Assembly: GCF_947259345.1 (NCBI RefSeq)
Contig: NZ_CAMYLS010000017.1
Span: 1-54,928, forward strand
From: an uncultured Maricaulis sp.
GTDB lineage: Bacteria > Pseudomonadota > Alphaproteobacteria > Caulobacterales > Maricaulaceae
DNA length: 54,928 nucleotides
Direction: 5' to 3'
The notes under the pieces were generated by a model. The model was not told where the DNA came from. It made no database searches and saw nothing but the letters and a program-made list of their open reading frames with translations. This document shows positions 49,743 to 54,625 of the stretch, in pieces. A program made the translations under genes and the position numbers. The first letter of the stretch is position 1. Every line of letters begins with the position of its first letter.

Positions 49743-50441
49743 ATGGACATGATTTTAGAGGGCTGGCAGGCCTTTTCTGGCTCGGGTGTCGGGCAGGTTC
49801 TGACCTCGCCGGAGGCCCAGCGAAGTTATGCGTGGCTTGGTCTTGGGCTCGGATTTATCGGGTTCTTGTTGCTGGCGCGCCGACAATTGAATGTGCTTGA
49901 GGGCTTCAAGGAGAGTGATCTTCTGCTCCAAAAGCGCGGCCGCCGACCAACACGCCCGGACTCTATCGACAAGCGGATTGTGGAATTGCGAGAAACACGC
50001 GCCACCGCCCGCCGCCAAGCCGTGCTTCGGGCGTTTGGCCTCGTTGCCCTCGGTATCGGTGGGCCATCCCTTCTTCTTTTTATCGTTATCTGGTCACATC
50101 CTTGGCTTCTTCCGGGCTATGCCGACCCGGTGACCGGTGCTGCGGGCTATCCCGCGTCGGGGGCGGCCATTGGGGTCTTCCTGGCTGACCAGGTGTTTCG
50201 GGGTGCCCTCGGCGATGTGCCGGAAGTGTTCGGGCTTGGATTCGCGCCGCTGGAGAACAATCCGGCCAATCTGATCGTTTCCTCCCTTGTCGTCGCCTAC
50301 CGAGCAACCGCCGGCCTGGTGTCAGTGGGCGTCCTCTACCTGTTCTGGCGCGTATGGCGTGGCTCGCGACAGGTGGACCGAATTGTCGGCCAGCTGGCCG
50401 CCGATCGCGATTCCGCTCACGCGGAGAGCGCCGGGACATGA
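49743..50441 (+). CDS. Membrane protein of unknown function
   Basis: 232 residues. Helices: AWLGLGLGFIGFLLLA near the N-terminus, a charged cytoplasmic loop with KRIVELRETRATARRQA, GLVALGIGGPSLLLFIVIWS in the middle, and a C-terminal LIVSSLVVAYRATAGLVSVG followed by LYLFWRVW. No family recognised. Its stop overlaps the start of the dehydrogenase-like gene (ATGA), indicating coupling, although no functional link is evident. Confidence 0.78.
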   Translation: MDMILEGWQAFSGSGVGQVLTSPEAQRSYAWLGLGLGFIGFLLLARRQLNVLEGFKESDLLLQKRGRRPTRPDSIDKRIVELRETRATARRQAVLRAFGLVALGIGGPSLLLFIVIWSHPWLLPGYADPVTGAAGYPASGAAIGVFLADQVFRGALGDVPEVFGLGFAPLENNPANLIVSSLVVAYRATAGLVSVGVLYLFWRVWRGSRQVDRIVGQLAADRDSAHAESAGT

Positions 50442-51160
50442 CATCGAGCCTTTCCGTCGGCCTGATCGGCGCGGGCGCTTTCGGGCGTCTGGCGGCGAGC
50501 CATCTCGTCCCCCATCTCGATCTGGTCGTCCATGACCCGGCAGTTACCGCGCTGGACGGCGTGACGCTTGTCTCGCTCGCAGAGGCGGCGTCGCGCCCGG
50601 TCGTGATCCTGGCGGTGCCTGTGCAGGTCATGGCGGAGGTGTGCCGCGAGATTGCGCCCCTCATTCAGCCGGGGGCGCTGGTGATGGATGTCGCCTCGGT
50701 GAAGCTGGAACCGATGGCGGCGATGCGCACCGAGCTGCCCGACACCACCCGTATTCTCGGGACCCACCCGCTTTTCGGCCCGCAGAGCGCGGCGCACGGG
50801 CTGGCAGGACAATCCATCGTTCTGTGTCCCGAGCCGGGCGTGGACCCGTCCTGTGTGGCGAATTTCCTGCGCGATGACTTGCGGCTCGATGTGCATGTGT
50901 CCGACGCTGACACCCATGACCGCACCATGGCCAGCGTGCAGGCCCTGACCCATCTGGTCTCCAAGGTCATCACCGATCTCGACCTGCCGGCTGCGCCCTA
51001 TACGACGCGCAGCTATGAGCTTCTGAAACAGGCGGCGGATCTGGTCGCGGGTGACAGCGACGCGCTGTTCCGCGCCATCGAGCGCCACAACCCGCATGCT
51101 GCTGATTTGCGAGCGCGATTCTTCCGGACGGCACGGGCGCTGGACGAGCGGCTGGAATAG
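50438..51160 (+). CDS. Prephenate/arogenate dehydrogenase-like protein
   Basis: 240 residues. N-terminal Rossmann motif GLIGAGAFGRLAASHL, VILAVPVQVM, VMDVASVKLEPM and the signature GTHPLFGPQSA with the catalytic His, then DADTHDRTMASVQALTH. These identify the TyrA fold. It is shorter than typical TyrA (about 290 or more), with a compact helical C-terminal domain and no ACT domain. It would supply tyrosine from prephenate or arogenate; substrate preference is not predictable. Confidence 0.88.
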   Translation: MTSSLSVGLIGAGAFGRLAASHLVPHLDLVVHDPAVTALDGVTLVSLAEAASRPVVILAVPVQVMAEVCREIAPLIQPGALVMDVASVKLEPMAAMRTELPDTTRILGTHPLFGPQSAAHGLAGQSIVLCPEPGVDPSCVANFLRDDLRLDVHVSDADTHDRTMASVQALTHLVSKVITDLDLPAAPYTTRSYELLKQAADLVAGDSDALFRAIERHNPHAADLRARFFRTARALDERLE

Positions 51161-51242: not shown

Positions 51243-51318
51243 TGGCTCCTCGGGACGGGCTCGAACCGCCGACCCGGTGATTAACAGTCACCTGCTCTAC
51301 CAACTGAGCTACCGAGGA
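51243..51318 (-). tRNA. tRNA-Asn (anticodon GTT)
   Basis: 76 nt with encoded CCA. The acceptor TCCTCGG pairs with CCGAGGA, the anticodon stem GGTGA/TCACC encloses CTGTTAA (anticodon GTT), and the T-arm has GGTTCGAGCCC. Confidence 0.96.
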
Positions 51319-51407
51319 ACATGTGCTCTCAAGCGAGGCCCGGCTTTTATCAGAGCTTTTGCTCGGGGCGCAAGCACCCTTGTGTGCAAGAAGCAGCAAG
51401 TGGGTGC

Positions 51408-51438
51408 AAAAAAAATCGGGAGCCGCTGGGGCTCCCGA
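51408..51438 (-). terminator. Strong minus-strand rho-independent terminator
   Basis: TCGGGAGCC-CCAGC-GGCTCCCGA is a perfect 9 bp stem followed by eight T residues on the minus strand. There is no annotated protein gene upstream of it on that strand. Confidence 0.85.
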
Positions 51439-51482
51439 AAAGGCATTGGGTGGATGGTGGGGTGTCTTCACGGGAAGACGCA
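51408..51482 (-). ncRNA. Candidate small RNA behind a CtrA-type site
   Basis: On the minus strand a predicted transcript of about 75 nt begins near GCGTCTTC, forms a 5' hairpin GTCTTC-CCGT-GAAGAC (51464-51479), has a C/A-rich open linker (ACACCCCACCATCCACCCAA) and ends in a textbook terminator. A full CtrA consensus lies 22 bp upstream of the proposed start. No protein gene uses this terminator from that side. The C-rich linker could pair with Shine-Dalgarno regions. It is not a known family to me; expression is unproven. Confidence 0.55.
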
Positions 51483-51503
51483 CTCAAAATCAGCCCCGAA
51501 CCC

Positions 51504-51518
51504 TTAAAGCGGAGTTAA
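51504..51518. promoter_or_regulatory. Full CtrA-type binding site (TTAA-N7-TTAA)
   Basis: TTAA-AGCGGAG-TTAA matches the Caulobacter CtrA consensus exactly. It lies 170 bp before the Mpo1-like gene and 22 bp upstream of the proposed small-RNA start on the minus strand. CtrA control is inference. Confidence 0.6.
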
Positions 51519-51687
51519 TGGGATCGGGAGAATTGGGGATTTGGTTTATTGTCCTTGCCTGTTTCCTAATGGAATCATGGAAATACGTGGAAAACGCCAC
51601 AGACATCATTCACCATGATAACGGCCCGCATTCGGGCGAGAAAGCTGCCGTGCTACTGATTCGGCAGGCGAATCACCGGAGGTGACC

Positions 51688-52038
51688 ATGCGCGAACACG
51701 CCACATTCGAATCATTCTGGCCCTTTTACCTGCGCGAACACGCCAAGCCCTGGACGCGGGCCTGGCATTTCGTCGGCTCGACCCTGGCCATATTCGTCCT
51801 GATCTACGCGCTGGCTTCGCAGACCTGGTGGCTGCTTCTGGCCGTGCCGGTCTCGGGCTATTTCTTCGCCTGGGTCAGTCATGCCTTCGTTGAGCGCAAC
51901 AAGCCGGCGACCTTCACCTATCCACTTTGGTCGCTCATCGGTGATTACCGCATGTACGGCCTCTTCCTCGCCGGGCGCCTGGATGCCGAGCTGGAGAAGG
52001 CGGGCGTGACCACCGGCGAACAGGCGAGTGAAGGCTAG
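51688..52038 (+). CDS. Mpo1-like (DUF962) membrane protein
   Basis: 116 residues. The family opening FESFWPFYLREHAKPWTRAW and HFVGSTLAIFVLIYAL are clear, with conserved His residues near the first helix and in VSHAFVERNKPATFTYPLWS. The yeast homologue Mpo1 is an Fe2+-dependent dioxygenase acting on 2-hydroxy fatty acids; whether this bacterial form does the same is inference. Two membrane helices. RBS GGAGGTGACC. A DUF2256 gene follows 37 bp later. Confidence 0.9.
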   Translation: MREHATFESFWPFYLREHAKPWTRAWHFVGSTLAIFVLIYALASQTWWLLLAVPVSGYFFAWVSHAFVERNKPATFTYPLWSLIGDYRMYGLFLAGRLDAELEKAGVTTGEQASEG

Positions 52039-52075
52039 GACTGGTCCGCGCGCCGCCGGGCACTAGGTTCGGCTC

Positions 52076-52216
52076 ATGGCCCGCCACATCTCCAGACAAC
52101 CCAAACCGGCCAAGATCTGCGCGAGCTGCGGTCGGCCGTTCGAATGGCGCCGCAAATGGGCGGCGGTCTGGGATGAGGTCAAATACTGCTCCGACCGCTG
52201 CCGCCGGGCGCGGTGA
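52076..52216 (+). CDS. DUF2256 zinc-ribbon-like miniprotein
   Basis: 46 residues: MARHISRQPKPAKICASCGR, PFEWRRKWAAVWDEVKYCSD, RCRRAR. Two Cys pairs (CASC and CSDRC) form a probable zinc site around a Trp-rich core, exactly the DUF2256 pattern. It ends 1 bp from the convergent photolyase stop. DUF2256 genes are, to my knowledge, frequent photolyase neighbours; function is uncharacterised. Confidence 0.92.
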   Translation: MARHISRQPKPAKICASCGRPFEWRRKWAAVWDEVKYCSDRCRRAR

Positions 52217-52217
52217 G

Positions 52218-53738
52218 CTAAAGCGCGGCGAGGACGTCGCGGGCCCGATCACGATAGGCTTGGCGCTTGGCGTCATCCATCCGGTCCCAATTGTGATAGA
52301 CCGGGCCCAGACGCGGATTGCTGCGCAACGTGTCGGCATTGCGGTCGAGAAAGTCCCAGTAGAGCGAATTGAACGGGCAGCTGTCCGGCCCCGTCTTGTC
52401 CTTCACATTATAGCGGCAATCGCCGCAATAATCGGACATGCGATCGATATAGGCGCCGCTCGCGGCATAGGGTTTCGAGCCCAGCAGACCGCCATCGGCA
52501 AATTGCGACATGCCGATCGTATTGGGCGCCTCGACCCATTCAAAGGCATCCACATAGACCGCCAGATACCATTCATGCAGGGCGTGCGGATCGATGCCGG
52601 CGATCAGGGCAAATGTGCCCGTCACCATCAGGCGCTGGATATGGTGGGCATAGGCCTCGCGGCGTGTCTGGTCGATCGCGGCCGCGAGGCAGGCCATGTC
52701 GGTCTCACCACTCCAGTAGAAGTCGGGCAGGGGGCGTTCAGCGCCCAAAGCATTGCGGCGGACATAGTCGGGACCTTCGCGCCAATAGATGCCGCGCACA
52801 TATTCGCGCCAGCCAATGATTTGGCGGATGAAGCCCTCGGCCGAGTTGAGCGGTACATCGCCGGCCCGCCAGGCCGCGTCGACACGCTGGCAGACGGCGA
52901 GCGGATCGAGCAGGCCGATATTGATGTACGCGGAAAGCACGGAGTGCCAGAGAAAGGCTTCACCGCGCAGCATGGCGTCCTGATAGGGCCCAAACTCGGC
53001 CAAAGCCGTGGCGATGAAATGGCCCAGAGCGAGTTCGGCCTGGTCAGTCGTGACAGCAAAGCGGAAGGGTTCCAGGTCGCCGAAGCCGTCGGGAAAGCGA
53101 TCAGCCACCATGTCCAGTACTTCGCGGGTGATGGCATCGGGCTCGACGCTGTGGGGGCGAGGCATGAAGAGGTCGTCGGTGGCCGGCCTGCGGTTCTCGG
53201 CATCGTAATTCCATTTCCCGCCGGCCGGCTTGTCGCCCTCCATCAGCAAGCCGGTTTCGCGCCGCATCTCACGGTAGAAATATTCCATGCGCAGCTGTTT
53301 GCGCCCTTCCGCCCAGCTGGCGAACCGGTCGTGCGAGCACAAGAAGCGGTCGTCTTCCAGGACCACAACGGGCAATCCAAACCGGTCGTGCCAGGTTTCG
53401 AATTCCCGACGCAGGCGCCATTCGCCCGGTTCGGTAATGATCAGGCGGTCATAGGTGTTCGCGGCCAGCGCGCGCTCGATCCCGTCGGCGAAATCGGCGC
53501 AGGGCTTGTCCTGGTCGAGGCGGTGATAGATGACCTTCCGGCCTTCGGCTTGCCGAGCCGCTGCGAAATGGCGCATGGCCGAGAAGATGAGCACCATCTT
53601 CTTGCGATGGTGCCAGACATAATCCGTCTCGCTGATTGCCTCGACCATGAGGATATCGGCATCCTCGGGCCGGGTCTGGCGCAGGCTTGGCAGGCCGGGG
53701 CTGAGCTGGTCGCCCAGAACGAGCACAAGATCAGTCAT
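52218..53738 (-). CDS. phrB: FeS-type bacterial (6-4) photolyase / cryptochrome (PhrB-like)
   Basis: 506 residues, the length of Agrobacterium PhrB (about 507). The N-terminal antenna domain has DLVLVLGDQLSPGL and the C-terminal FAD domain has FIRQIIGWREYVRGIYW and QRLMVTGTFALIAGIDP. Cys at 350, 438, 441 and 454 (DMAC, YCGDC, PDSC) coincide with the four [4Fe-4S] ligands of PhrB. It repairs UV-induced (6-4) photoproducts using light. The ATG follows GAGGGATGCCAC. It is flanked by DUF2256 (convergent) and an SDR gene (divergent). Confidence 0.95.
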   Translation of the reverse strand: MTDLVLVLGDQLSPGLPSLRQTRPEDADILMVEAISETDYVWHHRKKMVLIFSAMRHFAAARQAEGRKVIYHRLDQDKPCADFADGIERALAANTYDRLIITEPGEWRLRREFETWHDRFGLPVVVLEDDRFLCSHDRFASWAEGRKQLRMEYFYREMRRETGLLMEGDKPAGGKWNYDAENRRPATDDLFMPRPHSVEPDAITREVLDMVADRFPDGFGDLEPFRFAVTTDQAELALGHFIATALAEFGPYQDAMLRGEAFLWHSVLSAYINIGLLDPLAVCQRVDAAWRAGDVPLNSAEGFIRQIIGWREYVRGIYWREGPDYVRRNALGAERPLPDFYWSGETDMACLAAAIDQTRREAYAHHIQRLMVTGTFALIAGIDPHALHEWYLAVYVDAFEWVEAPNTIGMSQFADGGLLGSKPYAASGAYIDRMSDYCGDCRYNVKDKTGPDSCPFNSLYWDFLDRNADTLRSNPRLGPVYHNWDRMDDAKRQAYRDRARDVLAAL

Positions 53739-53809
53739 GTGGCATCCCTCATCCACTCACCCGTTCGATACGTAGACAGTGCTCAAGCAGACCAGCAGAT
53801 GGTGAGCCG

Positions 53810-54511
53810 ATGAGCAGGACAACAGCCCGATTGGCCGTGGTGATCGGCGCGACCGGCGGGGTGGGCGCAGCCCTGGTCTCGGCCCTGATCGCACATGACG
53901 CCTATGACCGCGTGATCTGCCTGTCGCGCGGATCGACTCCGGCTGTGGATCTCGAAAAGCCCGACAGTTTGTCCGGAGCGGCCGACTGGCTGGTCAATCA
54001 GCCGGGCGAGATTCGTCTGGTCATTGACGCCACTGGCTTCCTGCACGACGCGAAATTTTCGCCCGAGCGGAGCTTGCGCGATCTTGACCCGGCCCATCTG
54101 CACAAGGCTTTCGCCATCAATGCGGTCGGGCCGGCCTTGCTGATGAGACACATCCTGCCTCTCCTGCCGCGCAAGGGGCGGGCGGTATTCGCGACCCTGT
54201 CGGCGCGGGTAGGCTCGATCGGTGATAACCGGCTCGGAGGCTGGCATGCCTATCGCGCCTCGAAATCAGCGCTGAACCAGTTCGTGCGTGGTGCGGCCAT
54301 CGAATTGTCGCGCAAGCGACCGGAAGCAATTTGCGTGGCCCTGCACCCGGGTACGGTCGACACCAGATTGTCAGCGCCCTTTTCCAAATCCGGCCTGGAT
54401 GTCCGCCCGGCAGGGGAGGCAGCCTCGGATATCCTGCGCGTGATCGAGGCCCTGAGCGTAGACCAGAGCGGCGGCTTTTTCGACCACAAGGGTGAGCCCG
54501 TCCCGTATTGA
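53810..54511 (+). CDS. SDR-family oxidoreductase (C-factor-like)
   Basis: 233 residues. The cofactor motif is unusual in lacking the first Gly of TGxxxGxG: VVIGATGGVGAALV. NAVGPALLM is the structural Asn region, LSARVGSIGDN provides the Ser, and YRASKSALN holds the catalytic Tyr/Lys. It resembles CsgA/C-factor-type SDRs that often accompany photolyase genes in light-stress clusters (recollection). Divergent from the photolyase, with 71 bp between starts. The substrate is unknown. Confidence 0.9.
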   Translation: MSRTTARLAVVIGATGGVGAALVSALIAHDAYDRVICLSRGSTPAVDLEKPDSLSGAADWLVNQPGEIRLVIDATGFLHDAKFSPERSLRDLDPAHLHKAFAINAVGPALLMRHILPLLPRKGRAVFATLSARVGSIGDNRLGGWHAYRASKSALNQFVRGAAIELSRKRPEAICVALHPGTVDTRLSAPFSKSGLDVRPAGEAASDILRVIEALSVDQSGGFFDHKGEPVPY

Positions 54512-54551: not shown

Positions 54552-54625
54552 TGGAGGCACCGCCCGGAATCGAACCGGGGTACACGGATTTGCAATCCGC
54601 TGCGTCACCACTCCGCCACGGTGCC
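54552..54625 (-). tRNA. tRNA-Cys (anticodon GCA)
   Basis: 74 nt with encoded CCA. The acceptor GGCACCG pairs with CGGTGCC, the anticodon stem GCGGA/TCCGT (one G-T pair) encloses TTGCAAA (anticodon GCA), and the T-arm has GGTTCGATTCC. Confidence 0.96.

Follow-up and report, generated by a model that had tools for sequence, protein, structure and literature searches.

We have analysed a 54,928-nucleotide stretch of DNA from an uncultured Maricaulis sp. (contig NZ_CAMYLS010000017.1, here called the window) and find that it very probably carries a real small RNA gene on the minus strand, between a tRNA-Asn gene and a gene for an Mpo1-like protein. Judged by conservation and covariance model matches, this RNA, which changes little throughout its order, is a homologue of the Caulobacter small RNA CC0196 (Rfam RF01519) and not a new kind. 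The explanation that we favour, and that we consider probable as a whole, is a stand-alone gene homologous to CC0196, whose transcription would be activated by CtrA and whose linker is likely to act by base-pairing in trans. An initial annotation of this DNA had proposed a small RNA of roughly 75 nt at this place, and the proposal is borne out by conservation, by covariation and by homology to an RNA annotated in Caulobacter. The elements of the locus and its neighbours are as follows.

51504 to 51518, minus strand: CtrA full site TTAA-N7-TTAA, its 5' nucleotide at -39 from the inferred transcription start.
51486 to 51491, minus strand: -10 element GATTTT, with A-11 and T-7 conserved in the members.
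51408 to 51479, minus strand: small RNA of about 72 nt, a homologue of CC0196 by conservation and model matches; +1 placed at 51479, end at about 51408.
51464 to 51479, minus strand: 5' hairpin of 6 bp, GUCUUC-CCGU-GAAGAC; the sequence and length of the loop vary among members.
51439 to 51463, minus strand: C/A-rich single-stranded linker of 25 nt with the strongly conserved core ACCCCACCAU, the presumed interaction site.
51408 to 51438, minus strand: intrinsic terminator, a 9-bp stem and eight U.
51347 to 51374, minus strand: probable own promoter of the tRNA-Asn gene, CTTGCG-16 nt-TGATAA, identified by eye.
51243 to 51318, minus strand: tRNA-Asn(GTT), a conserved neighbour.
50438 to 51160, plus strand: PDH_N gene, flanking the small RNA region.
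51682 to 52038, plus strand: Mpo1-like gene (PF06127), flanking the small RNA region.

The strong minus-strand terminator of the initial annotation is present. Its stem, read from 51438 to 51416, has 9 pairs, 7 of them G-C, with a loop of 5, and is followed by eight T. Terminator-like sites taken alone are unremarkable here, with 2 per 3 kb scanned against a shuffle mean of 2.4. The predicted fold of a 79-nt stretch has an energy of -25 kcal/mol, against a mean of -14.2 for shuffled sequences (z -4.45), and none of 200 shuffles equals it. The terminator had been described as having no protein gene to feed it, and this also holds: the recognisable protein genes on both sides of the small RNA lie on the plus strand, according to a domain search, and none of the minus-strand frames that span the region resembles, when judged by eye, a gene feeding the terminator. 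The 6-bp hairpin and the C/A-rich linker are found upstream of it as described. The perfect TTAA-N7-TTAA at promoter distance is likewise there, and is the only exact match in the whole 54.9-kb window, where 0.01 would be expected. The combination of hairpin, linker, terminator and CtrA box is not a product of chance, since the same set recurs in relatives.

A DNA search with a 121-nt region gave matches at an E-value of 1e-3 or better throughout the genus and, beyond it, in many genera of the family and the order; the count of 59 out of 61 genomes in this search was made at E 10 and includes chance matches. The matches align over the hairpin, the linker and the terminator, and upstream over the TTAA pair as well. 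A covariance model built from 15 sequences of two families only (R1; families f1 and f4 in our numbering) finds a match at E 0.01 or better in 219 of the order's 299 genomes, spread over 44 of 54 genera. No R1 match at that threshold was obtained in the other 80 genomes, and family f5 is the source of 20 among the weakest matches. A wider model of 98 sequences (R2) was run on 33 genomes, mostly those with a weak R1 match or none: 30 match, one of them (L471) probably by chance, and 3 do not. Sixteen of the 18 f5 genomes in this search match; 14 of their loci were placed, each with 7 or more of the 8 CtrA letters at -38 or -39 and with a tRNA-Asn gene in the locus. A pattern scan of named genomes yielded at least 116 stretches; among the matches listed are Maricaulis, Caulobacter, Phenylobacterium, Hyphomonas, Hyphobacterium, Glycocaulis, Woodsholea, Hirschia, Robiginitomaculum, Hellea and Rhizomicrobium.

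Across the class, R2 matches 28 of 385 genomes: 5 within the order, 14 strong matches outside it and 9 weak ones. The strong outside matches come from six families with E-values of 4.1e-12 or better; at least 4 of these 14 are identical in sequence to loci on which R2 was trained and are thus not independent of the model. A CtrA box is present in 13 of the 14, and the locus of the fourteenth was not located. The nine weak matches (E 3.7e-6 to 8.5e-4) were rejected as chance matches; the five that were located have no CtrA box, and four were not located. In two weak matches, L237 and L242, which are probably due to chance, a terminator comes directly after an apparent tRNA 3' end (CACCCCACC...), as judged by eye; the linker of the small RNA resembles a tRNA acceptor end.

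The initial annotation had suggested that relatives be searched for covariation in both stems, and in the terminator stem such covariation is seen. In an alignment of 97 distinct sequences that was fitted to the structure, 98.1% of the cells pair. All 8 modelled pairs of the terminator vary on both sides, and the covariation score is 0.53, compared with 0.135 after shuffling and at most 0.157 after sliding. For helix 1 the alignment is biased, because 46 of its 98 members came from a pattern that required the stem; pattern-free support comes from the f5 genomes found by R2, where the stem is AUCUUC/GAAGAU at 6 loci and GUCUUC/GAAGAU at 6 others. Two loci cut by contig ends (L109 and L149) and nine weak second matches were removed before this alignment (A4); L040-L042 were left out as non-members. 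Another reading is that the region codes for a small protein, starting for instance at the GTG of the hairpin loop. Open frames do cross the region, among them one of 90 aa from 51483, and in the Maricaulis copies a short frame begins at this GTG, as seen by eye. However, the start codon is missing from the loops of many other members, and from family to family the linker is longer or shorter by a base or two, which would break any frame; we regard a small protein as extremely improbable.

The CtrA box keeps a fixed register with the RNA. In 97 of the 98 aligned members at least 7 of its 8 letters are found at -38 to -40, and all 8 letters in 56 of them; a control window of the same size at -150 to -75 has at least 7 letters anywhere in 4 of the 98, and letter shuffles give 3.3%. 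The initial annotation had also pointed to conservation of the TTAA half-sites in relatives, and at least 7 of 8 letters are indeed present in 129 of 131 distinct members (127 at -38 to -40 and 2 at -34), the other two, L085 and L457, having merely 6. The members were picked by their RNA and not by their promoter, with the exception that the first BLAST query (121 nt) included the promoter. Left out of the promoter and neighbour counts in the set of 131 were L227, L229, L231, L462 and L470, which are cut or mis-located, and L471; duplicates (L220 and L114, L221 and L104, L223 and L163, L225 and L156) were counted once. A-11 is conserved in 104 and T-7 in 95 of the 131, and +1 is therefore placed at the first G of the hairpin (51479). 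The start at 51482 proposed earlier is thereby replaced, while the end at about 51408 stands. It is from this start, derived from conserved letters, that the spacing of -39 for the window site is counted.

In Caulobacter, full TTAA-N7-TTAA sites near -35 are reported to activate transcription in predivisional cells, the CtrA site of the ctrA P2 promoter lies at -39, and six ncRNAs are given among the CtrA promoters (Zhou 2015, PMC4287350). The window site at -39 falls within the definition of a CtrA full-site promoter, whose 5' nucleotide is near -35. Position-locked conservation and this published geometry together lend strong support to CtrA-activated transcription of the window RNA, as the initial annotation had supposed. 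One CtrA-controlled sRNA is reportedly mentioned in the Landt abstract of 2008. The SciP motif is not enriched upstream (it is present in 58 of 135 members, a control stretch giving 71 of 135, with four members counted twice), and GANTC occurs upstream in 41 of the 135, a count made without a control and with the same four counted twice.

Since the site is palindromic and stands in the intergenic spacer that precedes the Mpo1-like gene, it might serve that plus-strand gene, the hairpins being incidental. The register argues against this, as 127 of 131 distinct members have the site at -38 to -40 of the hairpin, whereas the Mpo1-like start in the window is about 165 nt away from it; at the Caulobacter locus L075, moreover, the upstream frame is a different one (GST-like by eye) on the same strand as the RNA. 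Service to the Mpo1-like gene is thus highly improbable. The segment from 51682 to 54511 beside the small RNA encodes the Mpo1-like protein, a DUF2256 small protein, a photolyase-related protein (PF04244) and a short-chain dehydrogenase.

The identity of the RNA was indicated by an Rfam search of the members, in which L037 scores as RF01519. The window copy does not reach the gathering cut-off of that model (35 bits), only tRNAs reaching gathering in the window, and its own genome has no RF01519 match at E 0.01 or better. Of the 299 genomes of the order, 92 have an RF01519 match at E 0.01, in many cases weak and partial, and 27 score over the cut-off. R1 finds the RF01519 place in 26 of these 27 loci, and the remaining one, L097, has a higher score as MmgR. 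Because a model trained on f1 and f4 finds the RF01519 place in this way, the window RNA is considered a divergent homologue of CC0196, and it is almost certainly its orthologue. As the window copy scores below the cut-off, the family is wider than the Rfam model shows. The two RNAs share the order of hairpin, C-rich linker and terminator, the position of the CtrA box and the tRNA-Asn neighbour; they differ in the linker, which reads CACCCCACCAU in the window and CACCCACCAU in the best RF01519-scoring loci, and in the sequence of the terminator.

CC0196 is in turn probably CCNA_R0004, a 133-nt RNA described as having its own promoter and lying between CCNA_00197 and CCNA_00196, all in one direction (PMC6237742). 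L075 has 133 nt, and both L073 and L074 have 134 nt, from the hairpin G to the base before tRNA-Asn, and the frames that flank L075 share one direction, as at CCNA_R0004. The annotated 133 nt exceed the length from start to terminator. The expression values given for R0004 over 140 min are 5.5, 3.9, 8.0, 4.8, 12.8, 2.2, 3.7 and 4.2, with the peak at 80 min; the RNA is labelled 'Cell cycle regulated' there yet has no assigned phase, and one CtrA half site and no full site are listed upstream of it (PMC5988900). These tabulated values are low and noisy (2.2 to 12.8). The loci L445 and L446 carry TTAG-N7-TTAAC, in agreement with the listed half site. Mitomycin C is stated to raise R0004 3.7-fold, not specifically (PMC6237742), and the in-silico targets published for it are CpaE and maf (PMC5988900, Table 2). 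In the literature that we located on CC0196 or CCNA_R0004, no assigned function was found.

In 114 of the 131 distinct members, the best-scoring Caulobacter loci included, a tRNA-Asn gene follows the RNA in the same orientation and no more than 600 nt away. In the remaining 17 it is on the other strand (6) or not close (9), or the stretch ends too soon (2). The small RNA could on these grounds be seen as a 5' leader or attenuator of tRNA-Asn, in which case CtrA would drive the tRNA transcript; that the 133-nt CCNA_R0004 would end where tRNA-Asn begins or one base before, at the three nearest Caulobacter loci, also favours this view. It is made improbable by the covarying terminator, which separates the small RNA from the tRNA, by a CTTG[CA] motif that 58 of 88 members have in the 75 nt preceding the tRNA (11.5 in shuffles), and by the persistence of the RNA in the 15 members whose tRNA-Asn is on the opposite strand or not close, 13 of which have at least 7 of 8 CtrA letters. 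Because the tRNA has its own promoter motif and some members have no tRNA downstream, the small RNA is an independent unit whose place beside tRNA-Asn is mostly kept. The tRNA-Asn gene and a tRNA-Cys gene (54552-54625) form a conserved pair around the small RNA, about 3 kb apart in the window and about 0.6 to 1.5 kb apart in many relatives. In the Caulobacter-type loci L073-L076, two tRNA-Asn genes follow the small RNA.

Several other known RNAs were compared with the window RNA. CcnA, a cell-cycle ncRNA of Caulobacter, is presumably CCNA_R0094. It is likewise non-coding, two CtrA full sites are listed upstream of R0094 (PMC5988900), and CcnA modulates CtrA and GcrA according to the title of the paper on it. 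As described, R0094 differs from the window RNA in being 182 nt long and transcribed from the replication origin region. EcpR1 of Sinorhizobium meliloti is described as an alphaproteobacterial trans-sRNA tied to the cell cycle; unlike the window RNA, it is stress-induced. The targets of EcpR1 are gcrA and dnaA, and gcrA shows no complementarity to the window linker. Two Rfam families have a similar anatomy, ncS16 (RF02866) and MmgR/suhB (RF00519). Identity with ncS16 was rejected, the window scoring 27 bits against a gathering cut-off of 48, and so was MmgR/suhB, with 25.3 bits on one member, L039, against 41; other Rfam matches, weaker than that of ncS16, were rejected as well. MmgR/suhB itself is found over gathering in two f4 genomes (L097 and L101, at about 1488-1569 on the minus strand). 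RF01519 cross-matches L097 at 35.9 bits, just above its cut-off, which thus admits at least one MmgR.

The linker is the best-kept part of the RNA, with 28 nt identical across 19 loci of the window's genus. The form GACACCCCACCAU occurs in most of the other f1 and f4 members shown, and the form of the best RF01519-scoring loci is shared by some f2, f3 and f5 genomes. This conservation suggests a conserved partner. The target search covered part of one genome and three gene families, plus seeds in 12 genomes. Exact complements of the linker, GATGGTGGGGT and AATGGTGGGGT, occur in the 12 genomes at 54 places, of which 50 were taken as loci. Nine of these are the small RNA itself, and the other 41 lie mostly within mechanical ORFs, judged by eye; among these 41, again by eye, no start-proximal gene recurs between genera, and two pairs of loci resemble the same internal coding stretches. 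In a duplex scan that paired the linker with each of the 1067 gene starts predicted for 1.2 Mb of one genome (G010), the best two duplexes have energies of -40.3 and -37.8 kcal/mol, where the best for each of 20 shuffled linkers ranges from -31.1 to -37.3. The best target (GspN-like by eye) was rejected on its 15 same-genus orthologs, with a mean z of -0.28 and none below -1.4; the second-best place is a short frame with a TTG start. A CheY-like target ranked ninth was also rejected, z being below -1.4 in 5 of the 29 loci scored out of 30, all 5 of the same genus, with a mean of 0.07. For gcrA the mean z is +0.18 over 29 of 30 loci, none below -1.4, and ctrA ranks 229 of 1067 in the duplex scan. 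The initial annotation had suggested that the C-rich linker could target Shine-Dalgarno regions; as these partial seed searches and duplex scans gave no conserved target, that suggestion is not supported and stays a guess.

Strong conservation of the linker across families, yet no conserved complementary target from the searches, is also what might be seen if the linker were a protein site and the RNA acted by titration or as a scaffold, with no base-pairing. R0004 is, furthermore, missing from the published list of Caulobacter sRNAs with an Hfq enrichment of 3-fold or more (PMC11005374, Table 1, which has 18 rows where the text says 19), where a classical sRNA that pairs and has a U tail would usually be expected. 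However, several Caulobacteraceae-type members are without one core C, so that a rigid site would have to tolerate a one-base deletion, and the target search had just the scope given above. In addition, trans-acting sRNAs ordinarily have such an anatomy, with a C-rich single-stranded stretch joining a hairpin to a terminator with a U tail. We therefore consider a protein site unlikely and regard base-pairing in trans as the somewhat favoured mode of action of the linker.

The events that we propose for the favoured stand-alone, CtrA-activated RNA are these. Phosphorylated CtrA would bind the full site at -39 and, most likely in the predivisional cell, activate a promoter of the sigma-70 type. 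Transcription would begin at the first G of the hairpin and end at the terminator about 72 nt further on. The 5' hairpin would shield the 5' end and present the conserved linker, which would most likely base-pair in trans with one or a few RNAs.

The RF01519 family is wider and older than its Rfam entry. CtrA regulons differ between species; as the same spacing is found in all five families of the order that were sampled, and beyond, while regulons differ, this RNA is probably a core output of the circuit. Whether it is an ancient one that predates the Caulobacterales, with an in-register CtrA site across the sampled families and their relatives and a linker with one dedicated partner, is a matter on which our judgement is evenly balanced. 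If true, the RNA would give the CtrA regulon a post-transcriptional arm, one that has escaped notice since the Rfam model reaches only the relatives of Caulobacter. The gene is short and well defined and comes with a clear prediction, namely that its expression would be predivisional and CtrA-dependent. Its interest lies in the conserved promoter register and in the partner of the linker, and it raises the question of a conserved RNA arm in the CtrA circuit.
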